A stretch of DNA of 64,000 nucleotides from Burkholderia stabilis. Its GTDB lineage: Bacteria; Pseudomonadota; Gammaproteobacteria; Burkholderiales; Burkholderiaceae. Of this stretch, positions 6,376 through 37,918 are shown one piece after another. The translations under genes were made by a program, and so were the position numbers. Below the pieces are notes generated by a model. That model saw only the letters and a list, made by a program, of their open reading frames with translations. It was not told where the DNA came from and searched no databases. The stretch lies in the NCBI RefSeq assembly GCF_001742165.1, contig NZ_CP016442.1, forward strand, positions 3,100,001 through 3,164,000, given 5' to 3'. Positions within the stretch are counted from its first letter, which is position 1. Each line of letters opens with the position of its first letter.

Positions 6376-7586
6376 ATGGTTTCGGAATTCAGTTTGCTGC
6401 CCGATTACGCGGAGTTGTTCTGCCGCTCGAATTTCTCGTTCCTGCATGGTGCGTCGCACGCGGAGGAGTTGGTCGCGCGCGCGGTGGAACTTCACTACCG
6501 CGGGATCGCGATTACCGACGAATGCTCGCTCGCAGGCGCGCCGCGCATGCATGTCGCGGCGAAGGCGAAAGGGCTGCCGCTCATCATCGGTTCGTACTTC
6601 GAGGTGACGCCGGACGATGTTCCGCCCGGCCATGATCCGGGCCCCGGTGCGTTCGGGCTCGTGCTGCTCGCGCAGAACCGCGAGGGCTACGGCAACCTGT
6701 CCGAGCTGATTTCGTGGCGGCGGATGGAAGCGCCGAAGGGGACTTACACGCTGACGTCGCACATGCTGTCGAGGCCGCCCGAAGCGTTCGCGCACCTGCG
6801 CGGCATGCCCGACTGCTTCGCGATTCTCGTGCCCGCGTATCCGGTGCGCGCCGATGTACTCGATGCGCAGGTCGCGTGGTTTCGTGCGACGTTCGGCGAG
6901 CGGGCTCGGCTCGGGCTCGTGCAATTGCAGCGCGCGCTGGATGGCGTGCAGCGCGAGGAGATTCGCGAGGCGGGCGAGCGGCGCGGCGTGCGTGTTGTTG
7001 CGCTCGGCGACGTGACGATGCACAAGCGTTCGTGCAAGGGGCTGCAGGACGTGATGACGGCGATTCGCGTCGGGATGCCGGTGTCGGAGTGCGGGTATGC
7101 GCTTGCGCCGAATGCGGAGCAGCATCTGCGTTCGCGCGGGCGGATCGCGAAGCTTTTTTCGTCGGAGGAGATTGCGGAGACGTGTGCGATTCTCGACGCG
7201 TGTCATTTCGCACTCGATTCGCTGCGCTACGAGTATCCCGACGAGATCGTGCCGAAGGGGCTCACGCCGACGAGCTACCTCAAGCAGGAGACTCAGGACG
7301 GCGCACTGCGACGTTACTCCGGAAAGGTGCCCGAGCACGTGCAGGAGCGGATCGACTACGAGCTAAGGCTGATCGAGAAACTACATTACGAACCGTTCTT
7401 CCTGACCGTCTACGACATCGTCAAATATGCGCGCAGCCGGAACATCCTGTGTCAGGGTCGAGGCTCGGCGGCGAACTCGGTCGTCTGTTATTGCCTGGGC
7501 ATCACCGAGGTGAATCCCGAGCAGAGCACGATGCTGTTCGAGCGTTTCATCAGCGAGGAGCGCGGTGAGCCGCCCGACATCGACGT
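6376..7586 (+). pseudogene. dnaE2: host dnaE2 (imuC), 5' part, interrupted by the island
   Basis: The N-terminal ~404 residues of the error-prone DNA polymerase III alpha-like subunit DnaE2, third gene of the SOS mutasome operon. The PHP domain (YAELFCRSNFSFLHGASHAEEL; ITDECSLAG) and the start of the polymerase domain (CQGRGSAANSVVCYCLGIT) are intact. The reading frame breaks within PPDIDV, the motif carrying two catalytic aspartates (D401, D403 here). After the break the frame continues into island DNA for 25 unrelated codons and stops at 7662. The rest of the gene lies at 37911-39911 in the same frame: 401 codons up to 7578 plus 667 codons from 37911 give a 1067-residue protein. The fragment cannot polymerise DNA. 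Confidence 0.93.
7579..7586 (+). repeat. left 8-bp direct repeat at the dnaE2/island junction (attL core)
   Basis: ATCGACGT, identical to 37911-37918. It encodes I-D-V of the DnaE2 active-site motif. The next base differs from the expected dnaE2 continuation, so the repeat ends here. It may be the crossover core of a tyrosine recombinase or a target duplication. Confidence 0.8.
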
Positions 7587-7602
7587 ATATAGCCCCCTTT
7601 TT

Positions 7603-7615
7603 TCTACCGATGAGC
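7603..7615 (+). repeat. left-end arm repeat (TCTACCGATGAGC), inverted relative to right end
   Basis: Lies 16 bp inside the attL core. The opposite end carries the near-identical inverse at 37881-37893 (TCTACCGAAGAGC on the minus strand). Likely recombinase-binding sequence; inferred from symmetry only. Confidence 0.55.
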
Positions 7616-7666
7616 CGAATGCTTGCCTGTTAGCCTTTTGCCTTGGTACTTCACCACCTTAGATGA

Positions 7667-7675
7667 ATCGGTAGA
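7667..7675 (-). repeat. second left arm repeat, inverted copy of TCTACCGAT
   Basis: ATCGGTAGA on the plus strand is the exact inverse of 7603-7611. With the right-end copy this gives three copies of the nine-base word near the island ends. The 7587-7800 interval otherwise shows no gene and no LexA box. Confidence 0.45.
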
Positions 7676-7800
7676 TATACGGAATCAATCGGGATAGCGC
7701 GAAAGAGCATCGTTTTCCAGGGCGTTGGCGCACACAGTGCGCTCGGATGTCTGAGGGATGCCCTGTTCGATGGAAATGTTCTGCATCGGTTGTACATCTC

Positions 7801-10800
7801 ATGGCCACATTGCCTCTCTCGTTGCCGGCATATGCCGAGCTCTTCTGCTTATCGAACTTCACTTTCTTGGAAGGGGCTTCGCATGCGGAGGAGCTGGTCA
7901 AGCGAGCCGCTCAACTGGGTTACTCTGGGATTGCCATCACAGACGAATGCTCTTTGGCGGGGGTTGTCCGGGCGCATGTAGCTGCCAAGGATCTAAATTT
8001 TCCGTTGGTCATCGGGTCATACTTCAAGTTGACTCAAGCCGATTCGTCGCCTGCCCTTGACCTGATCTTGCTTGCCCAGAACCGCGAAGGGTACGGCAAT
8101 CTGTCCGAGCTCATCACGCTGGCACTCATGCGATCACCCAAAGGTGGATATCGCCTCACGCCACAGGACCTCTCGAAACCGGAGAAGGCGCATGCCCATC
8201 TGAGAGGCATGCCAGGATGCCTCGCGATCTTGATCCCCAAGTTCCCCGCGAAGCCGGAAGCGCTGGACGCTCAAGTTGAGTGGCTGTTGGAGACGTTCCC
8301 AGGGCGTGCATGGGTCGGCCTATGTCTGCATCAGCGCGCAATGGACAATCCCCATGCTGGTGTTGTCGAGCACATAGCGTATGGCAACGGTGTCCCAGTA
8401 GTTGCGGTCGGGCATGTAACCATGCATGTCCGTTCCAGGAAGCCGCTGCAGGACACAATGACGGCGATCCGTATAGGCAAGCCCGTCGCAGAATGCGGCT
8501 ATGAGCTTGCACCGAATGCCGAGCAGCATCTGCGGTCGCGGATGCGCTTGGCGCATCTCCATCATCCAAACGCGTTAAACGAGACGGTCGCGATTCTTTC
8601 ACGTTGCGGGTTCTCGCTCGATGAGTTGCGTTACGAGTACCCCGATGAACTAGTGCCGGCTGGGCTCACACCAACTGAATATCTGCGGCAGGAAACATAC
8701 ATTGGAGCGCATCGTCGCTTCTCGAGCGGCATCCCTCTCAACGTGCAGACGCAGCTCGAACATGAGCTCGAACTCATCACGGATTTGAGCTATGAGCCAT
8801 ATTTTTTGACGGTGTACGACATCGTCAAATTTGCGCGCAGCGAAGGAATTCTTTGTCAGGGACGTGGGTCAGCAGCCAATTCTGCGGTCTGTTATTGCCT
8901 TGGCATAACGGAGGTGGACCCTGCGCGATCGACGATGCTGTTTGAACGATTTATCAGCCGGGAACGCAATAGTCCACCCGACATAGATGTCGATTTCGAG
9001 CATCAAAAAAGAGAAATCGTTATGCAATACATCTATCGAAAGTATGGACGTGACCGCGCAGCTATCGCTGCTGCTGTATCGACATACCGTGCGCGAGGTG
9101 TGCTGCGGGACGTAGGGAAAGCAGTCGGTGTTGATGCTCAGATTGTCGATCGAGTTGCCAAGGCGCACCACTGGTTCGACGGCACGGCAGATTTGCTCGA
9201 GCGATTTTCAGAGTCAGGGCTGGATCCATCGGCACCCATCATTCAAACTTGGGCATCGCTGGCCGCGCAGCTGCATGGTTTTCCTCGACATCTTTCCCAG
9301 CACTCCGGTGGCTTTGTGATCAGTCGAGGCAAGTTGTCACGCCTTGTACCGATCGAGAACGCGGCAATGCAGGACCGTAGCGTGATTCAGTGGGATAAGG
9401 ATGACCTTGAGTCGCTCGGGTTGCTCAAAGTGGATGTGTTGGCGTTGGGAATGCTGAGCGTCATTCGCCGTGCGCTTGACCTCATATCCCTGCACCGTGG
9501 TGAACCGTTTGAGATGCAGGATATCCCGTCAGAGGATCCGGAGACGTATGACATGATCTCTAACGCGGATACGATTGGCGTATTTCAGATCGAGTCGAGA
9601 GCGCAACAGTCGATGTTGCCACGATTGAAGCCACGGACGTTCTACGACCTCGTGATTGAGGTGGCGATCGTGCGTCCTGGTCCGATTCAAGGTGGTGCTG
9701 TCCATCCGTATTTGAAGCGACGTCAAGGAATAGATCCGGTTAGCTATCCGAGCAAGGATCTGGAAACAGCACTAGCTCGAACGCTCGGCGTGCCGATTTT
9801 CCAGGAACAAGTGATGCAGGTCGCAATTCTCGCGGCCGGTTTTTCTCCCGGTGAGGCCGACGGACTACGGCGCGCGATGGCAGCCTGGAAGCGCAAAGGC
9901 GGGCTGGAGCCCTATCACGATCGCCTAGTGAGTGGCATGTTGATACGAGGCTACGAAAGAGAATTTGCAGAAGCGATCTTTGCTCAGATAAAGGGGTTTG
10001 CCGACTATGGCTTCCCGGAAAGCCATGCGGCAAGCTTTGCGTTGCTTGTCTATGTCAGCAGCTGGTTGAAATGTCACGAGCCAGAGGCGTTTCTTGTATC
10101 GTTACTGAATAGCCAGCCAATGGGGTTCTACTCGCCCTCACAGCTTATCCAGGACGCGAAACGTCATGGGGTTACGGTCTTGCCTGCAGATGTCGCGATC
10201 AGCAACTGGGAGTCGTCTCTGGAATATCCAGAGGTGGATGGGCGTCCAGTTGTTCGGCTTGGCCTCTCTCTTCTGCATGGGATGCGAGCGGAGGCGGCTG
10301 ATCGCATTGAAATGGCCCGAGCTGTTGAGCCTTTTTCGTCAACGATTGATCTGGCTCGGCGGGCTCAGCTGGATCGACACGATTTGCATGTTCTGGCTCG
10401 ATCCGATGCACTTGTGTCGCTGGCTGGCGGTCGTCGAAGTGCGCTGTGGGAATCCGTTGTCGCTGCTCCGGACAAGGATCTGCTTGCTTCAGCAAATGTG
10501 GTTGATGAAACACCTGATCTCGGATGGGCATCCGAAGGGGACGAGATACAGAGTGACTACCAGTCTATGGGGCTGACGCTGCGACGACACCCCCTAGCGT
10601 TGCTGCGTCCGATGCTACATGCGAGGAAGCTCATGCCGGCCGCTACGTTAAACACCTACCCAAACGGAAGGCTCGCGCGTGCATGTGGGTTGGTCACCGT
10701 ACGACAGCGGCCGGGAACTGCGAAAGGCGTAATCTTCGTCACGCTTGAGGACGAAACCGGAAACGTGAACGTTATTATCTGGCCGAAGTTGATGGAGATG

Positions 10801-10950
10801 CAGCGTAAGGAAGTCCTTGGTGCTCGGCTGCTAGCGGCGTTGGGCGTTTGGCAAAGTGTTGACGGGGTGCAACATCTGGTTGCCAAGCGTCTGGTGGATC
10901 TCTCCCATCTTCTAGGCGAGTTGCCGACGGTCAGTCGTAACTTTCACTAG
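7801..10950 (+). CDS. dnaE2: island-encoded intact DnaE2 error-prone polymerase
   Basis: A complete 1049-residue DnaE2, homologous over its full length to the broken host gene but clearly diverged and of lower GC. It has the PHP domain (YAELFCLSNFTFLEGASHAEEL), CQGRGSAANSAVCYCLGIT, the catalytic PPDIDVDFEH motif near residue 395, the FPRHLSQHSGGFVISRG and VRPGPIQGGAVHPYLKRR segments, and the C-terminal OB-fold ending LPTVSRNFH like the host's. The start aligns with the host N-terminus (ATLPLSLPAYAEL); an in-frame ATG 54 bp upstream is less likely. It lies in the orientation of imuAB, 215 bp past the break, so SOS transcripts could read into it. I found no LexA box of its own. It is probably the working polymerase of this strain's mutasome. 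Confidence 0.93.
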   Translation: MATLPLSLPAYAELFCLSNFTFLEGASHAEELVKRAAQLGYSGIAITDECSLAGVVRAHVAAKDLNFPLVIGSYFKLTQADSSPALDLILLAQNREGYGNLSELITLALMRSPKGGYRLTPQDLSKPEKAHAHLRGMPGCLAILIPKFPAKPEALDAQVEWLLETFPGRAWVGLCLHQRAMDNPHAGVVEHIAYGNGVPVVAVGHVTMHVRSRKPLQDTMTAIRIGKPVAECGYELAPNAEQHLRSRMRLAHLHHPNALNETVAILSRCGFSLDELRYEYPDELVPAGLTPTEYLRQETYIGAHRRFSSGIPLNVQTQLEHELELITDLSYEPYFLTVYDIVKFARSEGILCQGRGSAANSAVCYCLGITEVDPARSTMLFERFISRERNSPPDIDVDFEHQKREIVMQYIYRKYGRDRAAIAAAVSTYRARGVLRDVGKAVGVDAQIVDRVAKAHHWFDGTADLLERFSESGLDPSAPIIQTWASLAAQLHGFPRHLSQHSGGFVISRGKLSRLVPIENAAMQDRSVIQWDKDDLESLGLLKVDVLALGMLSVIRRALDLISLHRGEPFEMQDIPSEDPETYDMISNADTIGVFQIESRAQQSMLPRLKPRTFYDLVIEVAIVRPGPIQGGAVHPYLKRRQGIDPVSYPSKDLETALARTLGVPIFQEQVMQVAILAAGFSPGEADGLRRAMAAWKRKGGLEPYHDRLVSGMLIRGYEREFAEAIFAQIKGFADYGFPESHAASFALLVYVSSWLKCHEPEAFLVSLLNSQPMGFYSPSQLIQDAKRHGVTVLPADVAISNWESSLEYPEVDGRPVVRLGLSLLHGMRAEAADRIEMARAVEPFSSTIDLARRAQLDRHDLHVLARSDALVSLAGGRRSALWESVVAAPDKDLLASANVVDETPDLGWASEGDEIQSDYQSMGLTLRRHPLALLRPMLHARKLMPAATLNTYPNGRLARACGLVTVRQRPGTAKGVIFVTLEDETGNVNVIIWPKLMEMQRKEVLGARLLAALGVWQSVDGVQHLVAKRLVDLSHLLGELPTVSRNFH

Positions 10951-10977: not shown

Positions 10978-12228
10978 ATGTCGATACAAAGCGTTGAGAG
11001 CAGATGCATCTACTGTTCGAGCCTCGGGCCATTCAGTGACGAGCATATGATTCCTGCGGGGCTAGGTGCCGACGACAACCGGTATCTACTTCGCGACATG
11101 GTGTGCGAGACGTGCAACACAACCGTTTTCTCGCCACTCGAACTCGAGTGGTTGCGGAACTCGCCGACGGCGATTGGCCGAATTTTTATGCAGGCAAAGG
11201 GGAGAAAGCGGGGTAACAAGAAAAACCCTCCGAAACTAGGCGCGGCAACGCAGATCCTTGTTACCCCTGAGGGTTACACTGCCGAAGCAGAAATCGGCTA
11301 CCAAGGTAAGGCGACGATTCTTCCGCAGATGATTCTCGTCGATGAGCATCAGTGCAGTGTGACGGGATCAAACAAAGAGGAGTTCGACCGGTTCATTTCG
11401 CAGGTTCAAGAAGGGTTCGGGTCATCAATCACATGTGCGTCCAAGCTCGACGAGACGGCAACACACAAGTTCCAAATCGCAACATTTGTATGGGAAGACG
11501 GGCGCTACATCGAGCACCATCAAGTGGACGCAGACAAGCTACCTGCTTCTTGTTTGCTGTACCTTCCCATCGCTCCAAATGAGCACGGAAAATTCACGTC
11601 CAACAGCAGACTTTTCCGACGTCCGAACGGACAAATAGTATTGCGTCTCAGAAGAGACCTACAGCTCGGCAGTGCGCTGGCCGCATTCCGAAAAGTTGGT
11701 GAGAGCCTCGATCTATCGACGCTTGTCGAAGGCGAACTCAAGAATCCACTTGTCAACATTGGCTTCTCGTTTCAACCGGAAGTGACCGGCCGAGTACTCG
11801 CCAAGACGGGACTCAATATTCTCGGACATCTCCTGGGAGTGAACTATGTTGGGCACCCGGCCTTCCAGAGCATTAAGGAATCGATTACGACCGGTAGGCC
11901 ATCCATTCCTCCCTACACGGACGAAGCGAAGGCCCCGTTTCGAATGTTATTTTCTGGGCTGCCCGACACACACCATGGCTTCATGCTCTCGGCTCACCCA
12001 TGGCACGAACAAACATGTGGTATCGGATTGGCAACACGGTTGTATGGATCCCAGGTGGGAGTTGTGCCTCTCGCCCACGGCCTACCTCACCCGCCAATTG
12101 ATCTGCCAGTGATATTCACCGTCGACTATGGTGCCCATCTCATTGAGCAATACAGCCTAACGGAATACATGCGAAAGTATCCAATCACACCTTCGTCACT
12201 CGGCGGCAACCACGTACTGTCCGGTTAG
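10978..12228 (+). CDS. HNH-endonuclease-like protein
   Basis: A 416-residue protein preceded by a strong GGAGGAGG ribosome binding site and only 27 bp after the island dnaE2, so probably co-transcribed with it. The N-terminus has a C-x2-C pair (CIYCSSLG), the sequence FSDEHMIPAGLG and a second C-x2-C pair (CETCN). This Cys2-[D/E]H-Cys2 layout is that of zinc-binding HNH nucleases. The remaining ~350 residues are not recognisable to me. It may be a restriction or defence nuclease, or an accessory factor of the island; activity is not shown. Confidence 0.65.
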   Translation: MSIQSVESRCIYCSSLGPFSDEHMIPAGLGADDNRYLLRDMVCETCNTTVFSPLELEWLRNSPTAIGRIFMQAKGRKRGNKKNPPKLGAATQILVTPEGYTAEAEIGYQGKATILPQMILVDEHQCSVTGSNKEEFDRFISQVQEGFGSSITCASKLDETATHKFQIATFVWEDGRYIEHHQVDADKLPASCLLYLPIAPNEHGKFTSNSRLFRRPNGQIVLRLRRDLQLGSALAAFRKVGESLDLSTLVEGELKNPLVNIGFSFQPEVTGRVLAKTGLNILGHLLGVNYVGHPAFQSIKESITTGRPSIPPYTDEAKAPFRMLFSGLPDTHHGFMLSAHPWHEQTCGIGLATRLYGSQVGVVPLAHGLPHPPIDLPVIFTVDYGAHLIEQYSLTEYMRKYPITPSSLGGNHVLSG

Positions 12229-12501
12229 GCTTGCCTACGGAGAATGGAAATTTTCACTAAGGTATTTCTTGAGATAGCATGTCTGCGAGCACGCGCCTCA
12301 TACTATCTTGATGAATCCGGGTGCTTAGCGCCGCGGGATGTGGGGATCTGGGAGTACGATGACTAGCCCCGTGAGGCAGTGCACCTCTGCTCCGCCGTGA
12401 ACCACCGCATAAAAATGACGAGCAGCTTGAGCTCACATGGCAAGAACTCGGGAACATACGTCTCAGACCATTCGTGTTGCCGGCACTTACTTCTGACGAC
12501 A

Positions 12502-14223
12502 ATGGAAGACAATCTAGATCACGCGATGTTGGTTCAAGCGCTCCGCGACGTTATCGACGATCCTTCGGCGCTTCTTACGAGGCTGAAGGTGCATGCACTG
12601 GAATCTAGAGATATTCTCCATGCGCCGGTGTATGACGCAGCTGCCGAACTGAATGCTGAAGAGTCCTCGTTTTTCCGGGCAGTGGCTCGCGCCGCTAGAC
12701 AAGGACTTCCGAAGCATGAAATCACAACATTCATGTTTCCAGCGGTTGCGCTCTGTCAGCACGGTGATCCCCCGGCCGTTGTAGATATGCTTGTCGCCTT
12801 CGCGGAAACGTGGGGCGCGTCTCCAGTCGACTCAGTACATGTCGTCTCGAAAGTATTCTCGAACATCCCCACGCTTTCGTATGCCTGCACCGACATGGCA
12901 TTAGGAGGCACCGGATCGCTCTCAAAAATTGCGCCAACACTAGCAGTGGCCACAGCAGCATCCGAGGGCCTCGCTGCAATTCCGTATCTACTGGACTTGG
13001 CGGAGTCCCGGGATGCCGCACATGCGCATGCTGGCTTGGCAGGGCTTTGCGCAGTTGACGCTGATAGGTGGCCAGAAGCTAGCGTGTATATCGACCGGGT
13101 GATGGCGGTTGCAACGAAGGCCATCAGTGAGGAAGGCATCCAGTATCTGGGATACCGATTACTCAATCACATCTCCCTTGTTGATAAGCGAGTCGATCAA
13201 CTGCTGCTCGATGCCATGGGTGCCGGTAACGAAACGGCTCAGGTCGAAACGGTGCAGTGGCTCAGGTTTACGGCGCGCGATCGCGATCCTGGGTATGTTG
13301 CTCGCGTGCTCGAAATACTCGTGCCTGCATCTTTGGAGAACCGCGATATCCGAGATGTGGTGGAGGCGTCCATCATTAGCCTCATGTTTCACCGTGAGAC
13401 ACGAGCAGTTGGCTTATCGGCAATCGACCATATTGGGTGCCTTCTGCCGGGGAGGTCTCTCGAGGACGAATTTCGCCAACTCTACAACGCAATAATTTCG
13501 GATAACGATAGATATGTTCAAGTCGTTTCGCGTTGGCTGCTGATGTCCGACATATCGATTGCAGCGCTAAGGTCTGTCCTGGCGTTCGCGCAAACGGCGC
13601 CACACCGACTATTGCCAGATGTTCTGAGCTTCTCCCGAGCAGACGAACGAGAGCGCGTGAGAGCTGTTCGACGGTTGCTTGGACTTTGCTATAACGGCGC
13701 GGCGATCGCTGGATTTTTGTGCGAGCTCGCGATCCATGATTCGACAGAAAGCTGGGCTTTGAGGGCCTTTTCAGACGTTCTGGAAAACTATCTTCGAATC
13801 GAGTATCCCGCAGAAACGCGGACGTTCCTGGAAACACGACTCGAGCAAACGCCAGCGCGCAGCAAACTTCACCGCGAGATAGCCAGAGGACTGAAGCTCA
13901 TTCGAGAATGGGACAAGGTCTTGCGTAGCTTGCCCAACCTCAGGGAGCTTCAGCCTCGTCAAGAACAGCTGGTCACCCTAAATCTTGCCGATCGAAAGCG
14001 TAATCGTGAGATCGGTCGTGACGTCCGTCAGAGATCGATCTTTTCGATGCTTGCCAACCAAGTCTGCATTAAACAGGGGCAAGGCGTGGTGACGAAGATG
14101 CCAGACGGCACCAGTACTATCACCCCGCTCAGACCGCATTCAGTAACATTCGAGGTCCCTGGTTCCGAAGCCTCCGATCCGCTGTTGGGACAACTTCGAC
14201 GTCTCCGCTACTTATCTGATTGA
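12502..14223 (+). CDS. helical-repeat protein, first gene of a two-gene module
   Basis: A 573-residue protein of unknown function. Its sequence is a succession of amphipathic helices with HEAT/ARM-like periodicity (for example PAVVDMLVAFAETWG, AAIPYLLDLAESRDAAHAHAGLAGL and RDVVEASIISLMFH), suggesting a scaffold of alpha-solenoid type; I recognise no enzyme motif. The start at 12502 (MEDNLDHAML) was chosen because the upstream in-frame stretch looks non-coding; no clear ribosome binding site is visible, so the start is uncertain. The stop is 2 bp before the next ATG, showing strong coupling with the nuclease-like gene. The 273 bp before it probably contain a promoter. Confidence 0.6.
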   Translation: MEDNLDHAMLVQALRDVIDDPSALLTRLKVHALESRDILHAPVYDAAAELNAEESSFFRAVARAARQGLPKHEITTFMFPAVALCQHGDPPAVVDMLVAFAETWGASPVDSVHVVSKVFSNIPTLSYACTDMALGGTGSLSKIAPTLAVATAASEGLAAIPYLLDLAESRDAAHAHAGLAGLCAVDADRWPEASVYIDRVMAVATKAISEEGIQYLGYRLLNHISLVDKRVDQLLLDAMGAGNETAQVETVQWLRFTARDRDPGYVARVLEILVPASLENRDIRDVVEASIISLMFHRETRAVGLSAIDHIGCLLPGRSLEDEFRQLYNAIISDNDRYVQVVSRWLLMSDISIAALRSVLAFAQTAPHRLLPDVLSFSRADERERVRAVRRLLGLCYNGAAIAGFLCELAIHDSTESWALRAFSDVLENYLRIEYPAETRTFLETRLEQTPARSKLHREIARGLKLIREWDKVLRSLPNLRELQPRQEQLVTLNLADRKRNREIGRDVRQRSIFSMLANQVCIKQGQGVVTKMPDGTSTITPLRPHSVTFEVPGSEASDPLLGQLRRLRYLSD

Positions 14224-14225
14224 CT

Positions 14226-26490: not shown

Positions 26491-26537
26491 TGACCTGCCC
26501 CTTCGATAGGGCCACGGAGCTTCTAGTAAAGTCCTGT

Positions 26538-27655: not shown

Positions 27656-28089
27656 GTCCGTCTTCCTCTCCGAAAACGGACTTTACTAGATTCCGACTGG
27701 CCCGGTTTACGGGGAGCAGGTCAGCGCGGCTACCGCTCGATTCGAGGGGCGAGCTTCCCAAAGCCATTGCTGCGTCGAGGAGTGCGGTGCAAATGGCCAT
27801 CGTCGTTTTGCGATGCTAGGGCGCTGTGCCGTGATGCTCCAGGGCGAGACGGGGCAGGTGGACGTGATCCAGTGGCTCAACTTGCTGGAGAACTATCGAA
27901 AGGTTGCGCTCGGCGCTGCCTTGTTGGCCGTCTACTATATGTGGCAGGCCGACGGCAAGGTGTGGTACCTGATTGCGCGCAAGCTCGTCGATGGGACCGA
28001 GGTACTCGGGGGAGCTCGGTTGCGTCTGGATCGGCTCGGCGAATCTGAGCCTGGACTATTGCGACCTCCGTGACCCACCATGCCAACTT

Positions 28090-29121: not shown

Positions 29122-29257
29122 ACCTTCGTTGGCTTGTGGAGCAACCAGGTTGCAACCCCAACCCGCGTTTACGCCTATAGGCCAACTTTTTAGCGATGCT
29201 ACTATGAATATGTAAATGCATCGGTATTCACATACGAATGGTGAGAAAGTGACCGCA

Positions 29258-30121: not shown

Positions 30122-30124
30122 AAA

Positions 30125-31174
30125 ATGAGTCACGTCTCCATTCGAAATCTTTGCAAGCGGTATGGTGACCACACCGCTGTCGCAGATTTCTCGCTTGAAA
30201 TCGCCGAGGGCGAACTCGTTGCGTTCCTCGGCCCGAGCGGATGCGGAAAAACGACGACACTGCGCATGGTCGCCGGTTTCGTTGAGCCGACTTCCGGTGA
30301 GATCGTCGTCAACGGACGCGACATCACGTTCATGCCACCCCATGCCCGCAATACGGGGATGGTGTTCCAGCGCTACGCGCTTTTTCCGCACATGACGGTT
30401 GCCCAGAACGTGGCATTCGGCCTGGAAATGCGCAAGGTGTCTCGGACCGAGCGCGAGGAGCGGGTGCGTGCCGCTTTGGACATGGTGCGCCTCAGCACGC
30501 TAAAGGATCGATATCCCCGGCAGATGTCAGGCGGCCAGCAGCAGCGCGTCGCCATTGCCCGCGCGCTGGCCATTCAGCCGGACGTTTTTCTCCTCGACGA
30601 GCCGCTGTCGAATCTCGATGCGAAGCTTCGCGTCGAAGTGCGTGAAGAGATTCGCGCGCTGCAACGCGAGCTGGGCCTGACGACCATCTTCGTTACCCAC
30701 GATCAAGAGGAGGCCCTGACGATTGCCGACCGCCTCGCGATCATGCACGACGGACGTGTGCAGCAGGTCGGTACGTCATCTGACCTGTACGAACGACCGT
30801 CCAACAAGTTCGTCGCCGACTTCCTGGGCGTGATGAATTTTCTCAGCGGTACGGGCGGCAAGGATGGCTTCCTGACCAGCAAAGGCCTGAGCCTTCCCAT
30901 TTTCGACGGCGGCCCGGGGACCCGGACACTGGGAATCAGACCCGAACGCGTCTCCATCAACGAACGCCCCGTCTCCGGTCTCATCAACGTCCCGGTCCGG
31001 GTGACTGCGACGATCTACAAAGGTTCGTTGCTGGAGGTGCGCGCCGTTTCTCCGTCTGGAGATGTCTTCATGTCGCACTTGCCGAACACGATCGCGGCGA
31101 GCGGATTGCGACTTGGCCCCGACGAACGCTGCAACCTCAGTTTTGCCGAAAGTGATTGCCATTTCTTCGACTAG
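30125..31174 (+). CDS. ABC transporter ATP-binding protein, PotA-like
   Basis: A 349-residue ATPase. Walker A GPSGCGKTT (near residue 38), Q-loop in GMVFQRYALFPHM, signature MSGGQQQRVAIARAL, Walker B VFLLDEPLSNLDAKLR, switch histidine in VTHDQEEAL, and a C-terminal TOBE regulatory domain (LGIRPERVSI; TIYKGSLLEVRA). This is the standard PotA/PotG architecture. The substrate (polyamine or another small organic compound) cannot be told from the ATPase. Confidence 0.9.
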   Translation: MSHVSIRNLCKRYGDHTAVADFSLEIAEGELVAFLGPSGCGKTTTLRMVAGFVEPTSGEIVVNGRDITFMPPHARNTGMVFQRYALFPHMTVAQNVAFGLEMRKVSRTEREERVRAALDMVRLSTLKDRYPRQMSGGQQQRVAIARALAIQPDVFLLDEPLSNLDAKLRVEVREEIRALQRELGLTTIFVTHDQEEALTIADRLAIMHDGRVQQVGTSSDLYERPSNKFVADFLGVMNFLSGTGGKDGFLTSKGLSLPIFDGGPGTRTLGIRPERVSINERPVSGLINVPVRVTATIYKGSLLEVRAVSPSGDVFMSHLPNTIAASGLRLGPDERCNLSFAESDCHFFD

Positions 31175-31187
31175 GCAGGTAACAACG

Positions 31188-32243
31188 ATGAACACCACTG
31201 ACCGCCGGACCTTTCTCAAGCTGACAGCAAGCGCCGCGTTGGCACCTGCTGTCGCGGCCTTCTCACCCAGAGGATGGGCATCCACCACTTGTCCGAGCAC
31301 GATTGTCGGGACTTGGGGCGGTGATTACCAGAATCTTCTGGATACCAATATCGCGGCTGCATTGATCAAGCCTCAGGGCGGCAGCGTCGTCTTCGCGACC
31401 GCGGATCAGACGTCTCGCATGACAAAAATGCGGGCGGAAAAAATGTCACGGCGTGGCTCCCTCGACGTTACGTGCCTGTCTGATATCGACATGTACGAGA
31501 TGAATCGCGCGGGTCTCTTGCAGCCGATTCAACCCGCGCTCGTACCGAATCTCGGTAACACGATCGATCAGTTCAAGAAGCCTTACGCGGTCGCGCAAAT
31601 GTTCAGTGCATTCGTGCTTGTCTTCACTTCCGGCAAGGGGACGGCTCCGAAAAGCTTCTCGGATGTGCTGAACCCGAAATACAGCGGCAAGGTAGGTTTT
31701 TCCGATCTCCTCTACGGCCTGATCGGTGCGTCTGCTGGTTTGGCCGCCGGTGATCGGTCGGGTGGCATGATGGCCGGCCGGGACTTTCTCAACAAGCTCA
31801 AGGCAAATCGCCCGAAAGTCTATCCGTCAAATGAAGCGGTCGCCGCCGCGTTGAAGAGCGGCGAGATCGAGATGACATGGATGTGGAAGGCACGCGCCAT
31901 TCAATGGAAGAAGGCCGGATTGCCGATCGATTTTACGGTGCCGCGCGAAGGGGCGATACCCGCATTCTTCGAGGCCGCCGTTCCCAAGAATGCACCAGGT
32001 GATACGTGCGGATTCCAGTTTCTGAACGCAATGCTCGACCCGAAAGCGCAACAGGCATTCGCGGAAAAGATGGGCTATGCGCCGACCGTGCGTAATGCGG
32101 CGCTGCCCTCAACTCTTCAGCAACAAGTCGGCTTCACGGACGCCGAGCTCGGTCTCTTCGTCAAGCCGAACTATGAAGCGATGCTGAATCAGCGCGCCGC
32201 GTTCCTCGATTACTGGACGAAGGAATTCAAGGCTGGACTGTGA
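31188..32243 (+). CDS. ABC transporter substrate-binding protein, PotD-like, Tat-type signal
   Basis: A 351-residue periplasmic binding protein (extracellular solute-binding family 1/8). The N-terminus TDRRTFLKLTASAALAPAVAA has the twin-arginine pattern RRxFLK, suggesting Tat export of a folded protein. The mature protein starts TIVGTWGGDYQN and has the KMRAEKMSRRGSLDVTCLSDIDM and LNPKYSGKVGFSD segments typical of PotD-like proteins. The ATG at 31188 follows AGGCAGG. Its stop overlaps the next start (TGATG). Confidence 0.87.
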   Translation: MNTTDRRTFLKLTASAALAPAVAAFSPRGWASTTCPSTIVGTWGGDYQNLLDTNIAAALIKPQGGSVVFATADQTSRMTKMRAEKMSRRGSLDVTCLSDIDMYEMNRAGLLQPIQPALVPNLGNTIDQFKKPYAVAQMFSAFVLVFTSGKGTAPKSFSDVLNPKYSGKVGFSDLLYGLIGASAGLAAGDRSGGMMAGRDFLNKLKANRPKVYPSNEAVAAALKSGEIEMTWMWKARAIQWKKAGLPIDFTVPREGAIPAFFEAAVPKNAPGDTCGFQFLNAMLDPKAQQAFAEKMGYAPTVRNAALPSTLQQQVGFTDAELGLFVKPNYEAMLNQRAAFLDYWTKEFKAGL

Positions 32244-33136
32244 TGAGCGCGAATACCCAGACAGCCCATGGATCAGGCTCGTCGAATGTAAAGACGGGTT
32301 ACCTGCTTGCCACGCCCGCTACCGCCATCGTAGCGCTCATCGTGCTTGTTCCTGCCTTGCAGCTTGTTCGTTACAGCTTGAATCATTTCGATCCTGTCGA
32401 TCTGATGCAGACGGCGCTGACCACGGAAAACTACAGGCGGTTCTTCACCGACCCGTACTACCAGTCGGTTCTCTGGAGCACGCTGAAGATCTCGATTTTA
32501 TGCACGGTTCTTTCGCTGGTGCTCGGTTTCCCGGTCGCTTACTCGCTCGCCAAGTCTCAGTCGAAACGCAAGAGCTTGCTGATCATTCTCATCGTGTTTC
32601 CGCTCCTGGTCGGAAGCGTGGTCAGAGCAGCCGGGTGGATGGTCATCCTCGGAAACGCAGGGTTCGTCAACGCGCTGCTCATTCATTTCGGGATTGTTTC
32701 CAGTCCGATCCGCCTCATGTACACGCCGCTTGCGGTGGTCCTCGGGACGACGGGAGTTGTGCTGCCGTACATGATCCTGACGTTGCAGAGTGTGCTCGAA
32801 GGGATCGACCTGTCCGTGGAGGAAGCTGCGCGGAACCTGGGCGCTTCCCCGGCTGTCTCGTTCTTCCGGATCGTGTTGCCGATGGCAACCCCCGGGATCG
32901 CGGCCGGCACGATGCTAGTGCTGATTCTGTGCATGAACGCCTACGCGACTCCTGTTCTCCTGGGCGGAACAGGGCTGACGATGATGGCACCGACCGTCTA
33001 CGAACAGATTTCGAAAGCCTCGAACTGGCCGTTTGGTTCGGCTCTCGCGCTCATTCTGATGGTTGTCACGTTGGGGACTGCAGTCCTCTCAAATCTGGTG
33101 ATCCAGCGTAACCACGTCAAGACTATGCAGTCCTGA
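32243..33136 (+). CDS. ABC transporter permease, PotB-like
   Basis: A 297-residue permease with six membrane helices, partner of the PotC-like protein. The EAA loop is LSVEEAARNLGASPAVSFFRIVLPMATPGI. Its ATG overlaps the binding-protein stop by one base, indicating coupling. The gene order permease-ATPase-binding protein-permease is a variant of the usual potABCD order. Confidence 0.87.
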   Translation: MSANTQTAHGSGSSNVKTGYLLATPATAIVALIVLVPALQLVRYSLNHFDPVDLMQTALTTENYRRFFTDPYYQSVLWSTLKISILCTVLSLVLGFPVAYSLAKSQSKRKSLLIILIVFPLLVGSVVRAAGWMVILGNAGFVNALLIHFGIVSSPIRLMYTPLAVVLGTTGVVLPYMILTLQSVLEGIDLSVEEAARNLGASPAVSFFRIVLPMATPGIAAGTMLVLILCMNAYATPVLLGGTGLTMMAPTVYEQISKASNWPFGSALALILMVVTLGTAVLSNLVIQRNHVKTMQS

Positions 33137-33176
33137 CGGAACGCATCAACCAGTTTCTTCTCAGGAAAATCCGAAC

Positions 33177-34367
33177 ATGCCGAAACTCTCAAGAAAAACT
33201 TACGATCAGCGTTTGATCTCGATGCGATCGATGATGAAGGAGCACCAGGTAGACGCACTGATGTTCTCGACGGCGGACTTCTTTCAGTGGGCAACGAATT
33301 TCCACGTCGATGTACAGACGTGGGAGCGCCCCATCTTCGTTGTGATTCCCGCGAGCGGCGAGCCCTTCGCGATCATGAACGAGCTGTCGACCAGCCACAT
33401 GCGATTCGCAACGGAGCGCGAAACGGTCTGGGTCAACGACATTAGCTATTACCTCGAGCATCACTGTGCAGTCGACAACAGGCCGCGGCTGCCCGCGCTG
33501 TCGGAAATGATCGCCGAACGGCTGCGTTCGGCCGGCCTCGGATCGAGCCGGATTGGCGTCGATGCAACGCCGGCCGTGCTGTCGAAGGCGGGGCAGATCA
33601 TCCCTGGCGTTCGCTTCGTTCCGATGCTCAGCGATCTGCGCTCACTGCGGTGGGTTAAGGGCGCTGAGGAACTGGAGGTGATGCGCGCTGCGTCTTCGCT
33701 GTCGGATTGGGTGCAGGAGCGTTATCGGGAAAACATTCGGCCGGGACGTCTCGTTCAGGAGCTGGACTTCCAGATGGCGTCGCTCATGGTCGAAGAAGGG
33801 GCACGTCGCTTCCCGGGGGAGAATCTCGAGGTTCTGCGTTGCTGGACACTTTCTGGTCCGGCGTCGGCTTCGCCGCATGGTGACGGCGCGTCGTGCGGCG
33901 CGAGGATCCAGGCCGGCGATGGTCTCGTGAATATCGTGATTCCGCGACTGAACGGTCTCGTCATCGAGAATGAACGAACCTGGTTCTGCGGCAGGCCGAA
34001 TGCCGACCAACAGCGGTTTTTTGAGGCGGCCCGAGCAGCGAACGAAGCAGCGACTGATGCGGCGGTGACCGGCCGCCCGGTATCCGGAATCGATGCTGCT
34101 GCGCAGGCCGTCATCGAGAAGGCTGGCTGTGCGCAATACATTCGACATCGCACCGGGCACGGAATGGGGATCATGGGGCATGAGTACCCGGACGACATGG
34201 CCTTCAACCATCGGCCGCTGCTGGCAGGCGAAGTGTACTCCGCTGAACCGGGCATCTATGTGTTTGGTCTCGGAGGCTTCCGTCTTGACGACTCGGTCGT
34301 CGTCGGATCGACGCCCGAGATTATGACGACCACGCCGCGAACGATCGACTACGCAACTATCGTCTGA
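33177..34367 (+). CDS. M24-family (creatinase/aminopeptidase P-like) protein
   Basis: A 396-residue cytoplasmic protein with the creatinase N-terminal domain (~1-150) and a pita-bread M24 domain. The histidine and one glutamate are kept (HRTGHGMGIMGHE; SAEPGIYVF), but the two aspartates of active aminopeptidases appear changed (GLVNIVIPRLNG where VxxDxG is expected; ENERTW for SDxTRT) and the last glutamate is aspartate (GGFRLDDSVVV). This suggests a metal-independent, creatinase-like hydrolase rather than a peptidase. It is 40 bp after the importer and may process the imported compound, for example a guanidino or dipeptide-like substrate. Confidence 0.78.
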   Translation: MPKLSRKTYDQRLISMRSMMKEHQVDALMFSTADFFQWATNFHVDVQTWERPIFVVIPASGEPFAIMNELSTSHMRFATERETVWVNDISYYLEHHCAVDNRPRLPALSEMIAERLRSAGLGSSRIGVDATPAVLSKAGQIIPGVRFVPMLSDLRSLRWVKGAEELEVMRAASSLSDWVQERYRENIRPGRLVQELDFQMASLMVEEGARRFPGENLEVLRCWTLSGPASASPHGDGASCGARIQAGDGLVNIVIPRLNGLVIENERTWFCGRPNADQQRFFEAARAANEAATDAAVTGRPVSGIDAAAQAVIEKAGCAQYIRHRTGHGMGIMGHEYPDDMAFNHRPLLAGEVYSAEPGIYVFGLGGFRLDDSVVVGSTPEIMTTTPRTIDYATIV

Positions 34368-34774
34368 TGTAACGGGGTTTCAGCGAACCGACCGCTTATC
34401 GTCAAAAAAATACATCACATATCATTCCATTAATTATGGATAACTAATTTATTGATCAATGATGCGTGATTGCGGGACGATTATTACCAAATTGGTGGAA
34501 TACCGTCGGGCGGTCGGTCGAACATCGGACATCGCGTATGAGTCGGTTCTGAGTCGTCTATGAGATGACTCACCCGGCGATGTCGCGACCTCTTCTGCGC
34601 CGGTTCAAGATGGTCCCGATGTCGATTTTTCGCGCCGAACTCATTTCGTAATCAATGACTTCGAGCATGCCTCAAGGCCTGCGCACGTGCCGTGCTCGAC
34701 GTTATATCAAAACAACAAGCAAGATCCTCCGAGTGCCAGACGTCTTTATCAAAGCAATTTCACGGGAGCTCTTG
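34368..34774. promoter_or_regulatory. AT-rich intergenic region
   Basis: About 400 bp with a notably AT-rich segment (34405-34460, including the palindrome ATTGATCAAT). It probably carries the promoter of the lipoprotein gene at 34775. I see no gene, terminator hairpin or known operator. Confidence 0.4.
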
Positions 34775-35392
34775 ATGGACAGCAAGCTGAGTAAGAGAAA
34801 GATGTTACTTGTCATGGGATCGACCATCCTGGCAAGCTGCACCGGAGGCATCACTGTCGGTGATACCCGGCGCTCCGTTGACAAGGACATATCGCCCCGA
34901 AACATCGAGAAGAATGAGGCAGCGACGATTTCCGCGCTCGCACTTCCTAATCAGCCAGACCCAGGATTGGCGGCAATCGATCGGGGACTGGCCAATACGG
35001 TCGGACACAAGCTGTTCACCGTTCTGATGGTTGACCTTTCACACGACAAGAACCAACGGTACTACTCGAATCAGCCGGGAGCGTATCCGGTCGGGGGCAG
35101 CAAGCCGATCGTTCGAAGCAACGACTTTTTCCGAGATGTCGTGGTGGGTGGAAAACCGCGGATATGCCGGAACTACGAGGACATGAAGAAGGCTTTCTTC
35201 GACCATGAACTCATTCGCTCTCTCGGCTGCGAGAGCGCGGTCAACTATCCCATTCGTTGGGATGGAAAGACGGTCGGGACGTTGAATCTCCTTCATCAAG
35301 AAAATTGGTACAGCGAGGCAGACTTGCCCGCAATCGACGTGTTCGCAGGGTTGGCTATCGCACCGCTGCAAAAAATCATCTCGCAGAACTAG
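34775..35392 (+). CDS. GAF-domain lipoprotein
   Basis: A 205-residue protein. The start at 34775 has a GGGAG ribosome binding site and yields a lipoprotein signal (RKMLLVMGSTILASC) with lipobox LASC, so it is probably membrane-anchored. Residues from about 60 resemble a GAF domain (GHKLFTVLMVDLSHDKNQRYYSNQP; ESAVNYPIRWDGKTVGTLNLLH). GAF domains bind small molecules and are usually cytoplasmic, so an exported one is unusual. Between the catabolic-type operon and a porin it could sense the transported compound; this is speculative. Confidence 0.68.
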   Translation: MDSKLSKRKMLLVMGSTILASCTGGITVGDTRRSVDKDISPRNIEKNEAATISALALPNQPDPGLAAIDRGLANTVGHKLFTVLMVDLSHDKNQRYYSNQPGAYPVGGSKPIVRSNDFFRDVVVGGKPRICRNYEDMKKAFFDHELIRSLGCESAVNYPIRWDGKTVGTLNLLHQENWYSEADLPAIDVFAGLAIAPLQKIISQN

Positions 35393-35451
35393 ATCGGCTC
35401 TTGACGAGTCGCTGGATACTTATACGTATAATTAATAGGAATACATAATAA

Positions 35452-36588
35452 ATGAAGAATCGAATTGTCTTCTTCGCGGGTTTGGGGTTGTCCGTCATGG
35501 CGCACGCGCAGTCCTCCGTCACGCTGTACGGCACGATCGACAATGGGTTCCAGTTTACGAGCAACCAGAAAGGAGACCGCTCCTACATCCTCCAGCAAGG
35601 GGGGCTCGGCAGCAGTAAGTGGGGGATGTTGGGAACGGAGGATTTGGGGGGCGGTTACAAAGCCGTCTTCAACCTCGAGAACGGATTCGATCCAAACACG
35701 GGGAAGTTCGGGAACAACGGCGCGCTCTTCGGGCGCAAGGCGTTCGTCGGGGTGAGCAGCCCTTACGGTACGGTCCGCATCGGGCGACAGTACGATCTCT
35801 CTTATGAGACGCTCGGCGCCTATGCTGCTCCGAATCGCTTCGACGGTGGGTTGGGCGCGCACCCCGGAGACGTCGACAATCTGTGGGGGGACTTCAACAT
35901 TTCGAATGCCGTAAAGTACACGTCTCCGACATTCTTCGGCTTTTCGTTTGGTGCGCTATATGGGTTCGGCAATACTGCCGGCGATTTCACGCGATCGCAG
36001 ACGACGAACTTTGTTGCGTCGTATTCGAACGGCAACTTTTCGGGCGCCGTCGGCTATCTCAAGGTGAACGATCCGGCGATCACGATCTGGAATGCAGCGT
36101 CTTCGCCAGTCAGTGGGCAGACGTTCGCCAATCCGGTGACTTCGCCCATCTACAGCGGCTACGCGTCGGCCGGTGCCCTGCAGATCGCAACGGCCGGAGC
36201 CAGCTATACGATCGGGAGCGTCGTGCTTGCGGCCGTCTACTCGAACACGGAGTTCAAGAACGTTGTTGCGACCAGCAGCACGCCGAAGGCCGGGACATTC
36301 ATCTTCAATAACTACGAGGCAAACGCGAGCTGGATGATCAGTCCGACTGTCTATGTCGCAGCCGGGTACACGTTTACGAAGGCAGAGAGCGCACGCTACC
36401 AGCAAGTCAACGTCGGAGCGAAGTACTTCCTGTCCAAGAGAACCTACCTGTATTTTGCCAGCGACTGGTTGCATGCGAGCGGCATCGACTCGACCGGTCA
36501 TACCGCCGTTGCGGCAAGTAACAACATCACGGCGGCAAGCGGCTCGAGTCAGTTTGTCGGGCGTGTCGGTATACGTCACCAGTTCTGA
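35452..36588 (+). CDS. outer-membrane porin (OmpC-like, Burkholderia type)
   Basis: A 378-residue trimeric porin. Signal peptide ends VMAHAQ; the mature protein begins SSVTLYGTIDNGFQFTSN, continues with GSSKWGMLGTEDLGGGYKAVFNLENGF and the L3-type segment, and ends with the terminal phenylalanine (GRVGIRHQF) needed for outer-membrane assembly. Part of the metabolic cassette; it presumably provides entry for the importer's substrate. Confidence 0.9.
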   Translation: MKNRIVFFAGLGLSVMAHAQSSVTLYGTIDNGFQFTSNQKGDRSYILQQGGLGSSKWGMLGTEDLGGGYKAVFNLENGFDPNTGKFGNNGALFGRKAFVGVSSPYGTVRIGRQYDLSYETLGAYAAPNRFDGGLGAHPGDVDNLWGDFNISNAVKYTSPTFFGFSFGALYGFGNTAGDFTRSQTTNFVASYSNGNFSGAVGYLKVNDPAITIWNAASSPVSGQTFANPVTSPIYSGYASAGALQIATAGASYTIGSVVLAAVYSNTEFKNVVATSSTPKAGTFIFNNYEANASWMISPTVYVAAGYTFTKAESARYQQVNVGAKYFLSKRTYLYFASDWLHASGIDSTGHTAVAASNNITAASGSSQFVGRVGIRHQF

Positions 36589-36746
36589 CAGCAGACCTAG
36601 CTGCCGACATTTGCCCTGTCGGCGGCTATGTTCGTGGTGAGGCAAGGCTATCGAGCGTTTCGGGCGACCTGGAGCGGACAGCCTTTGTGCTAGCATCATC
36701 CACCTGCAATCGCCCATCCTGCAGCACGCAGGCAGGTGCATCGGCG

Positions 36747-37682
36747 ATGTCAACACTCGAAATTCTCCGAATGGACTTCCGTCACATCGACGCTTTCAGA
36801 GCGCTAATGCTTACCCGCACTGCGACAAAAGCTGCTGCGCTGGTCGGTACCTCTCAGCCAGGGATCAGCCGGTTGATCGCGGAGTTGGAGCGGTCTACGG
36901 GGCTGACCTTGTTCAACAGAGAGCGCGGCAGACTAGAACCAACGACGGAAGCGCAATCGTTTTTTGAAGAGGTGGAACGCCGCTATGCGGGCCTGGAGAG
37001 TTTGCGTGAGTTCGCCGTCGGCTTGCGCAATCCCGAATCCTCGGTGATCCGCGTAGGCAGTGTTACGACCTACAGCCTTGGCCTTTTTGCGAGAACCGTC
37101 GCGGCATTTCGAAAAGAGGAGCCTTCGACCAAGATTGCGCTGTCCGTTGCGCCGTCGGAAACCATTCGCGATCAGGTTGCCTCACGAACATTGTCGTTAG
37201 GGTTTGTGAATGGCGGGGTTGACGTATCGGACCTCGATGCGGAGCTGTTTTGCAGCACGCCCGCAATCTGCGCCATTCCTGCGTGCCACCCGCTGGCCAA
37301 AAAGAAAGTCGTAACAATAGCGAGCCTTCGTGATCAACCGCTGATCGCATACGAACCCGCCGCAATGGTTCGATGGGGCATCGACAGCTTTTTCCTCAAC
37401 GCGGATTTGAATCGACAGGTTGTAGCGGAAGTTAGGTATGCAGTGAACATTTGCACGATGGCCAAAGAAAACGTCGGCATCGGTCTCGTCCATCCTGTTG
37501 TTGCATATGACTTCCTGTCGTCGCAAGACATCGTCTTTCGACGTTTCGAGCATGATGTCGTGTTTCACTCGCTTCGCATCAAACCGACGATTCCGCCGCC
37601 CTCGCCGCAACTTCAGAAGTTCATATCGCTCAGCGAATCAATACTGAAGGAAACACTGGATCTCTTGGAAGATCATTTGTAG
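36747..37682 (+). CDS. LysR-family transcriptional regulator
   Basis: A ~311-residue regulator. N-terminal winged helix-turn-helix (FRALMLTRTATKAAALVGTSQPGISRLIAELE, in part) and a C-terminal periplasmic-binding-protein-like effector domain. The start is uncertain: ATGs at 36747 and 36771 are both plausible, neither with a strong ribosome binding site. It lies at the end of the cassette and may control the importer, M24 and porin genes, although it is not divergent from them. The 228 bp to the dnaE2 junction hold the right arm repeat. Confidence 0.85.
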   Translation: MSTLEILRMDFRHIDAFRALMLTRTATKAAALVGTSQPGISRLIAELERSTGLTLFNRERGRLEPTTEAQSFFEEVERRYAGLESLREFAVGLRNPESSVIRVGSVTTYSLGLFARTVAAFRKEEPSTKIALSVAPSETIRDQVASRTLSLGFVNGGVDVSDLDAELFCSTPAICAIPACHPLAKKKVVTIASLRDQPLIAYEPAAMVRWGIDSFFLNADLNRQVVAEVRYAVNICTMAKENVGIGLVHPVVAYDFLSSQDIVFRRFEHDVVFHSLRIKPTIPPPSPQLQKFISLSESILKETLDLLEDHL

Positions 37683-37880
37683 AAAGATTAGATGTCCAGG
37701 GGGTAACGGTCGAGTACAGGTACGAATACCTGCAGCCGAGTATCCGGAACGTGCTCAGCGCAATGTATCTCGTCTAACGCACCACGCATGCCAAACGCTG
37801 CTGCCGAGGCTCTTTAGCCTGATCTGCAGGTTCGTGAAATGGTGCCGAATCGTATGAATCGAAGCTGCGGGTAATCAATC

Positions 37881-37893
37881 GCTCTTCGGTAGA
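37881..37893 (-). repeat. right-end arm repeat (TCTACCGAAGAGC on the minus strand)
   Basis: Inverted relative to the left-end copy at 7603-7615 with one mismatch, 17 bp inside the right core repeat (left spacing is 16 bp). The symmetry supports 37910 as the true right end of the insert. Confidence 0.55.
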
Positions 37894-37910
37894 GTAACCA
37901 TGGGTACCAT

Positions 37911-37918
37911 ATCGACGT
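37911..37918 (+). repeat. right 8-bp direct repeat (attR core)
   Basis: ATCGACGT, identical to 7579-7586. Downstream the dnaE2 frame resumes as GTG GAC TTC GAA (V-D-F-E). Confidence 0.8.

Follow-up and report, generated by a model that had tools for sequence, protein, structure and literature searches.

An island within dnaE2 of Burkholderia stabilis that carries a complete, divergent dnaE2

The split dnaE2 gene and its island

The window analysed here is a stretch of 64,000 nucleotides of Burkholderia stabilis (contig NZ_CP016442.1, positions 3,100,001 to 3,164,000; G000:C1:3100001-3164000 in our genome set), taken from a genome of 8.5 Mb in 3 contigs. It contains dnaE2, the gene for an error-prone DNA polymerase, which is split by an island of about 30 kb whose first gene is another, complete dnaE2. 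The features that define this arrangement are the following, in window coordinates:

6376..7586, plus strand: N half of the host dnaE2, codons 1-401 plus the core
7579..7586, plus strand: left core copy, ATCGACGT, codons I402-D403-V404
7587..7800, plus strand: element left end, ATATAG...TACCGATGAGC, with the motif TCGGTAGA in both orientations
7801..10950, plus strand: island dnaE2, complete, 1049 aa, oriented like the host gene, its start codon 214 bp from the left end
27819..28437, plus strand: remnant of a plasmid-type dnaE2 (a further dnaE2 lineage), C-terminal pieces in swapped order
37880..37910, plus strand: element right end, ...TTCGGTAGAGTAACCATGGGTACCAT
37911..37918, plus strand: right core copy, ATCGACGT
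37911..39911, plus strand: C half of the host dnaE2, open as far as its stop codon

The 30,324 bp of element-specific DNA (7587-37910) split the host gene after codon 401. The two copies of ATCGACGT are spaced 30,332 bp apart, and the host halves are in frame when the core is counted once. The original prediction, made from the letters of the window and its open reading frames (ORFs), of a host dnaE2 divided by about 30 kb with an 8-bp repeat at both junctions and an in-frame join holds, with the interruption now placed after codon 401. The island has a G+C content of 56.6%, compared with 68.9% in the left flank and 67.4% in the right.

The core reads ATC GAC GT, that is I402, D403 and the first two bases of V404, and lies within the motif PPDIDVDF, the uninterrupted form of which is present in all 65 genomes of the genus that were searched. 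In an alignment, D394 and D396 of the island protein pair with D401 and D403 of the solved E. coli Pol III alpha, which we take to be the catalytic metal-binding residues. Granted this catalytic role, the recombination core is made of active-site codons, a stretch that any dnaE2 must keep. The left boundary, GACGT followed by ATATAG, is identical across four records, and the right boundary is common to the window and genome G348 (see below), with one mismatch in the 12 bases preceding the core. The left end also includes a 47-bp block which is identical in the three aligned islands; this block and the left-end motifs are probably arm sites for a recombinase.

The island dnaE2 scores 1528 bits with the NCBIfam model for error-prone DNA polymerase (cut-off 939). 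Its protein is 65% and 66% identical to the two host halves; genes from outside the genus, mostly of Paraburkholderia, are closer to it than these, at 76-80% identity. An intact, diverged and co-oriented dnaE2 as first gene of the island had been predicted and is confirmed, at about 66% identity. The further claim that it has the length of the host gene stands only with the upstream start at 7747, where the ORF opens (1067 aa), and falls with the start shared by its relatives at 7801 (1049 aa). The island copy also occurs outside the window, since two protein clusters with 98% and 92% identity to the island DnaE2 represent 41 and 26 sequences. When viral sequences were scanned with the same protein, 2 relatives of 52-53% identity came up. 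With regard to the remnant at 27819-28437, also inside the island, a C-terminal piece stands ahead of the piece that should precede it, and its DNA is 75-76% identical to the second dnaE2 of the plasmids pBCPS27 and HI2424.

Insertions at the same codons and the state of both dnaE2 copies

A junction pattern consisting of the PDIDV codons followed by TATA was searched in the 65 genus genomes. It was found in 3 of them (the window, G348:C4 and G372:C4), and the reversed-pattern control gave 0. The third insertion lies on the Burkholderia cenocepacia PS27 plasmid pBCPS27 (NZ_CP060042), where the target belongs to a different dnaE2 lineage. The same junction is present on plasmid HI2424 (NC_008545). 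As the two plasmids are 99.9% identical across 8 kb of this region, they are counted as one case, which makes three insertions and not four. In all three, the next gene inside the cut dnaE2 is a dnaE2 of one island clade in the orientation of the host gene, and its start codon lies 214, 213 and 212 bp from the left end into the element. The window and G348 have a complete copy; that of the plasmid is 3'-truncated after about codon 940, beside an IS3 transposase gene, apparently by later damage. The concern that most insertions at this site might lack a full dnaE2 is thus not borne out.

A wider motif search, without the following codons, gave 42 sites that were neither already known nor among 79 uninterrupted rows; one of them (L133) is an uninterrupted dnaE2, and the other 41 encode no dnaE2 by tblastn. 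The 79 rows are taken as dnaE2 by their motif without single checks, and together with L133 and the plasmid island copy they bring the uninterrupted motifs to 81, 3 of which are island copies. Among the 65 genomes, the motif search found no interruption beyond the 3 with this element end, a search that a cut gene without the PPD[IV]DV codons would escape. An exact 24-mer of the left-end block had 0 matches in the genome-contig collection; the junction pattern occurred in 8 genome-contig stretches and 1 viral-contig stretch, and tblastn with island and host proteins found dnaE2 in none of the 9. These collections therefore yielded no insertion of this type from outside the genus; near records may be left out of them, and a different element end would escape. 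A family-wide dnaE2 search (398 genomes) covered best matches only and neither shows nor excludes split genes outside the genus.

A tree built from 56 N-terminal parts unites the three island copies in one clade with 100/100 support and places the three targets apart from one another. The window host dnaE2 groups with five chromosomal-type Burkholderia genes (L076-L080, 100/100), the G348 host fragment is sister to G155 (L081, 99/89; the fragment fills 38% of the columns) and the plasmid target is placed among plasmid genes. The separate clade, along with the identity of about 66%, sets the island copy apart from a near-identical tandem duplicate of the host gene.

The G348 island measures 14,685 bp and has the same left end and dnaE2. 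Its cargo consists of ABC/HlyD/outer-membrane efflux genes and a VgrG-like gene: of five ORFs scanned (L051, L052), four resemble cargo of the type I secretion and VgrG kind, and the fifth matches no family. The defence and recombinase genes of the window were not found in it, and a DNA comparison of the two islands gave no match beyond dnaE2 and the ends. For the plasmid insertion, a protein search of pBCPS27 1-92,000 and 109,000-158,900 (L072-L074) did not find the C half of the cut gene, so that its right end is lost, moved or in the rest of pBCPS27 outside these parts. The two related B. cenocepacia plasmids, which form one replicon cluster, each have two imuA-imuB-dnaE2 cassettes (L073 3091-9346 and L057 15526-22835; L075 26509-32764); each cassette adjoins a gene for an SOS-associated peptidase, and one of the two is cut by the element. 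Elsewhere, G141:C4:156-3278 and 204326-207448 are equal-score dnaE2 matches near both ends of a 209,807-bp contig, perhaps the terminal overlap of a circular plasmid.

The island dnaE2 is under strong purifying selection. Over 1049 codons, the copies of the window and G348 differ with a synonymous divergence (dS) of 0.434 and a nonsynonymous divergence (dN) of 0.026, which gives a dN/dS ratio (omega) of 0.059, and omega is 0.065 between the copies of the window and the plasmid. The carried gene has an intact frame, keeps the motif and shows an omega of 0.06, and it may be functional. The host gene has decayed in one case: in G348 its N half is without about 118 internal codons, with the frame still open, and about 59 codons are left of its C half, the frame of which is lost. 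Both halves of the window host gene are still open, and the C half shows an omega of 0.09-0.10 in 5 of 6 comparisons and of 0.28 against the distant G155, so the insertion in the window looks recent. The sole uninterrupted motif match in the window genome and in G348 is the island copy. Besides this copy, a protein search of the window genome found the two host halves, the two remnant pieces and a 31% homologue that is presumed to be DnaE1. Purifying selection, decay of the host halves and the copy count suggest that the function lost from the broken host gene is now provided by the island copy. They support the original prediction that the element targets a conserved gene and brings a full replacement, the replacement of function being argued from these three lines.

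Recombinase genes, cargo and the imu operon

From 23023 to 15953 on the minus strand, the island has an operon of three genes, for a tyrosine recombinase of 494 aa, a large Integrase_2 protein and a protein of 270 aa; it also has two copies of one insertion sequence (IS):

21539..23023, minus strand: GmtY-like tyrosine recombinase, 494 aa, Phage_integrase domain
16653..21523, minus strand: large integrase gene (Integrase_2, GmtZ-like), split by an IS; C part in ORF 16653-18017, N part 19091-21523
15953..16765, minus strand: 270-aa third gene of the operon
17859..19092, strand unassigned: IS copy 1, with 4-bp repeats CCGA on both sides, splitting the large integrase gene
26491..27724, strand unassigned: IS copy 2, identical and inverted to copy 1, with rve transposase domains and 4-bp repeats GCGC

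The first 50 or so codons of ORF 16653-18017 are IS sequence. An IS-mediated inversion of the recombinase block was considered and ruled out, as each IS copy has its own matching 4-bp repeats, which point to two separate IS insertions. Since the large integrase gene is split, the element can probably no longer move by itself.

The same gene order, with homology gene by gene, is found in G361 (502, 1202 and 240 aa) and in Vibrio vulnificus NZ_CP015514 (516, 1209 and 255 aa), the third genes of which are 44% and 25% identical, respectively, to that of the window. The GmtY-like protein reaches 140.4 bits with the NCBIfam model, below the cut-off of 340, and the GmtZ-like parts reach 77.1 and 109.6 bits, below the cut-off of 600. 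The 270-aa gene matched no NCBIfam family at E <= 0.001, in a library whose inclusion of a GmtX model is not confirmed. The operon is rare: single-protein searches at E 1e-20 found the large integrase in 3 and GmtY in 6 of 398 family genomes, window included. A search with a GmtY alignment reached E 1e-80 in 1 of 399 genomes of the order, that of the window, and a viral scan with this alignment gave no confirmed match. The plasmid island keeps a GmtZ-like piece that is 81-82% identical and in the same relative orientation, and the left end of the G361 element resembles that of the window (TATA...ACCC...TATACCGAT). On these comparisons, the operon is likely to be the integrase for the dnaE2 site.

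An intact three-gene recombinase operon at L010 12560-18525 stands about 100 bp from an apparent element boundary, which has an end resembling those of the dnaE2 islands and adjoins an unrelated 261-aa ORF. A target-gene copy within the G361 element was sought for this adjoining 261-aa gene and none was found in the two contigs examined. In Vibrio vulnificus, L059 17983-23934 has a GmtY-like gene, a VPA1269-family gene and a small third gene; 13 kb on (31269-36698) stands another such set, in which the first two genes are shorter. Directly upstream of the GmtY-like gene of the window, at about 23100-23330 on the minus strand, a small ORF has by eye the look of an XRE-type regulator. This region was also considered as a second left end beside GmtY and discarded, since nothing similar was seen by eye or alignment and it encodes this regulator.

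The remaining genes of the island are cargo:

10978..12228, plus strand: 416-aa ORF with no Pfam, NCBIfam or PADLOC family at E <= 0.001
12379..15950, plus strand: OloA-like and OloB-like pair, matching the Olokun anti-phage defence models in PADLOC
24198..25883, plus strand: AAA/KAP-type ATPase, partial match to the defence candidate PDC-S49
29216..37682, plus strand: ABC transporter set, M24 peptidase, GAF protein, porin and LysR regulator

No relaxase or conjugation gene appeared among the 20 island ORFs scanned with Pfam, a scan that did not extend to shorter and overlapping ORFs. An Rfam scan of 6000-40000 and a tRNA scan were both empty.

Upstream of the host dnaE2 lie two features that bear on its expression:

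4203..4218, plus strand: LexA-type SOS box, CTGTATATCCATACAG, just ahead of the imuA-like region; the window has no other exact CTGT-N8-ACAG
4759..6369, plus strand: host imuB; the ORF opens at 4759, and homology to G348 begins near residue 35

From 4253 onward, the window matches the annotated imuA of pBCPS27. One exact box compares with 0.31 expected, and at least one occurred in 28 of 100 shuffles; since a chance match is not rare, the argument for the box is its position. No exact SOS box occurs in the three element left ends, where the closest candidate has 2 mismatches in 8; a sigma-70-like site was not seen either between 7400 and the start of the island dnaE2. Read-through from the imu operon would be the simplest model for expression of the carried gene.

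Competing explanations and related elements

The reading that we favour, with a probability of about 0.8, is that of a site-specific integrative element which breaks dnaE2 at its catalytic motif and re-supplies DnaE2. The DNA encoding Ile-Asp-Val in the catalytic motif would serve as the attachment core, and insertion, presumably through the GmtY/GmtZ-like operon, would break the host SOS polymerase gene within its active site. The imuA-imuB-dnaE2' transcript, with a LexA box ahead of imuA, would then run on into the co-oriented island dnaE2, which would re-supply the ImuA-ImuB-DnaE2 mutasome.

Several observations weigh against this reading or parts of it. Only three insertions are known, all within one genus. 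Because the G348 island is without Gmt-like genes, the link between operon and site rests on two of the three islands and on the left-end likeness of the G361 element, a likeness equalled by 10 and 16 of 2000 random windows; additionally, the operon stands in the middle of the island, not at the element end as in the GInts discussed below. Between the window and G348, omega is 0.41 for the host imuB (no baseline) and 0.35-0.39 for the N half of the host dnaE2, and N-part pairs that involve either of them across host groups give 0.33-0.39 versus 0.24-0.31 for intact pairs with G155. Relaxed selection on the host imuB and dnaE2 after insertion was accordingly considered and is not used as an argument here, as the N-part difference is too small and imuB has no baseline. 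Finally, dS between the window and G348 is similar for the island dnaE2 (0.434) and the host N parts (0.453), as vertical descent would give.

This last agreement, and right ends that match save one base, would suit a single ancestral insertion that was inherited vertically by the window and G348 and left the plasmid case alone as a separate event. Host relatives on both sides are intact, however (L081/G155 as sister to the G348 fragment, L076-L080 with the window host), and several precise losses would therefore be needed. The host halves look undecayed in the window and decayed in G348, the two islands share no DNA match other than dnaE2 and the ends, and the plasmid target is a third gene in any case, which leaves the single insertion an unlikely account. 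It appears decidedly unlikely that the island dnaE2 is ordinary SOS cargo, its position inside dnaE2 being a coincidence or the relic of an attachment site and the replacement not being selected. Genes of this kind are common on mobile DNA (794 plasmid records match the island DnaE2 at E <= 1e-100), and an integrative and conjugative element is known to carry imuABC (PMC7466150). Nevertheless, all three insertions have a co-oriented dnaE2 first inside the same end, at 212-214 bp, and neither imuA nor imuB precedes it there; moreover, its omega of 0.06 and its being the sole uninterrupted copy in the window genome and G348 do not fit a passenger.

Recombination or duplication between dnaE2 genes, rather than site-specific integration, could be suspected from the presence of three dnaE2 lineages within 34 kb, including the rearranged remnant at 27.8-28.4 kb. 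Such an origin is hardly probable, since both ends have the exact 8-bp core, the non-coding left end is the same every time, the copies are 66% identical and the targets come from three lineages. An assembly error as cause of the split is very unlikely because the same left junction is present in an unrelated genome and in two complete plasmid records, and the probability of an artefact or chimera, in favour of which nothing was found, is negligible given these independent records.

A bolder version of the favoured reading is put forward tentatively, as a possibility that somewhat less than half of our confidence would back. A mobile lineage may spread as the cell's only source of an SOS mutagenic polymerase: it would land on the catalytic codons, destroy the resident polymerase, provide its own through the SOS operon of the host, avoid itself through a recoded core and be locked in by decay of the host gene. 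The island copies depart from the landing core (ATAGATGT, ATCGATGT and GTCGACGT in the three islands), which would make them a poor target for their own element. The exact core is found in 0 of 3 islands versus 65 of 77 non-island genus rows, counted by eye; against this, just 32 of 50 non-island genes of a mixed set have it, and the recoding, once considered as proof of immunity, is suggestive at best. If this version is true, loss of the element would mean loss of the polymerase once the host halves have decayed, as in G348.

Integrative elements that make up for a broken gene with a whole copy have been published for recA in Vibrio (PMC4405046, PMC4334540), and partial compensation has been suggested for Tn6283, which inserts in bcp and encodes a 54.8% identical homologue (PMC5991714); these and the following comparisons hold for the portions of the cited papers that were examined. 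The prediction that whole-gene replacement of a mutagenic polymerase is undescribed stands with regard to the polymerase as target and falls with regard to the principle. RME (V. cholerae S24) and VpRME (V. parahaemolyticus 090-96) are, like the island of the window, elements of about 30 kb at one site inside a DNA-repair gene, and they carry a complete divergent copy of the target (recA, 23-24% diverged), at one end in RME. Different strains and two species were struck at nearly the same position (491, 494), and RME also holds IS copies with different repeats (PMC4405046, PMC4334540). Its authors propose that the carried recA spares the cell the loss, and they have demonstrated excision and insertion experimentally (PMC4405046). 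The dnaE2 element shares a specific site inside a protein gene and a complete divergent target copy, the one on the plasmid being 3'-truncated. The target of RME is recA and not a polymerase gene, its repeats are 9-bp inverted (V. cholerae) or a 6-bp overlap (V. parahaemolyticus) in place of an 8-bp direct core, and recA-RME, which was shown to work in E. coli, has its own LexA box, unlike the left ends of the dnaE2 islands with no exact box; the selection and decay analysis made here has no counterpart in the portions of the RME paper examined (PMC4405046). The principle is therefore the same as in RME, while the gene, the flanking repeats and a core on catalytic codons differ, with three targets and with selection and decay added.

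Other elements resemble the island in part. Tn6283, a strand-biased circularizing element (SE), likewise has several recombinases and no known conjugation genes, and its bcp site is described as having neither an inverted nor a direct repeat (PMC5991714). SEs, described with a core set intA-tfp-intB-srap and a 6-bp footprint (PMC10214605), differ from the island in gene count. GMT islands share GmtY-like and GmtZ-like recombinases and anti-phage defence cargo (PMC12039261). The window proteins nevertheless score far below the NCBIfam cut-offs, and the GmtZ-like protein has about 1200 aa in the intact relatives of the operon versus 784 positions in the GmtZ model. GInts have several recombinase-type genes with a small accessory gene, large cargo and flanking direct repeats, as does the window, but their four-gene gin operon at the 5' end of the element sets them apart by description from the three-gene operon in mid-island; in the portion of the paper examined, their target is an ABC transporter gene and a replacement copy is not mentioned (PMC5385486). 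Integron-like elements in rulB also combine tyrosine recombinases with site-specific insertion into the gene of an error-prone DNA polymerase. They have a 3-bp GAT repeat and, in the portions of the paper examined, no complete rulB inside the element, unlike the window; one carries a 160-aa RulB-like ORF, and the authors report that UV tolerance was not lost upon insertion (PMC4542609). The thymidylate synthase insert of Clostridium difficile (Knetsch et al. 2011, as cited in PMC4405046) disrupts its gene and brings another version, as here, but with 4.2 kb it is small and concerns a different gene.

No report of an island in dnaE2 or imuC appeared among the papers listed by literature searches aimed at it, the reach of which excluded most subscription papers. 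The novelty appears to lie in the polymerase target, in a core placed on catalytic codons and in repeated insertion into both chromosome and plasmid. What might have been a single curiosity (the recA islands, perhaps bcp) becomes a pattern of integrative elements that disrupt a conserved gene at an invariant codon and supply a foreign version of it. In the present case, the gene that is swapped sets the rate of damage-induced mutation, and the element may have replaced the mutagenic polymerase of the host by that of another lineage. Phylogenies of dnaE2 and annotations of a 'split dnaE2' in the genus can reflect swaps by elements, and excision, replacement and the immunity of the recoded core offer a directly testable system.

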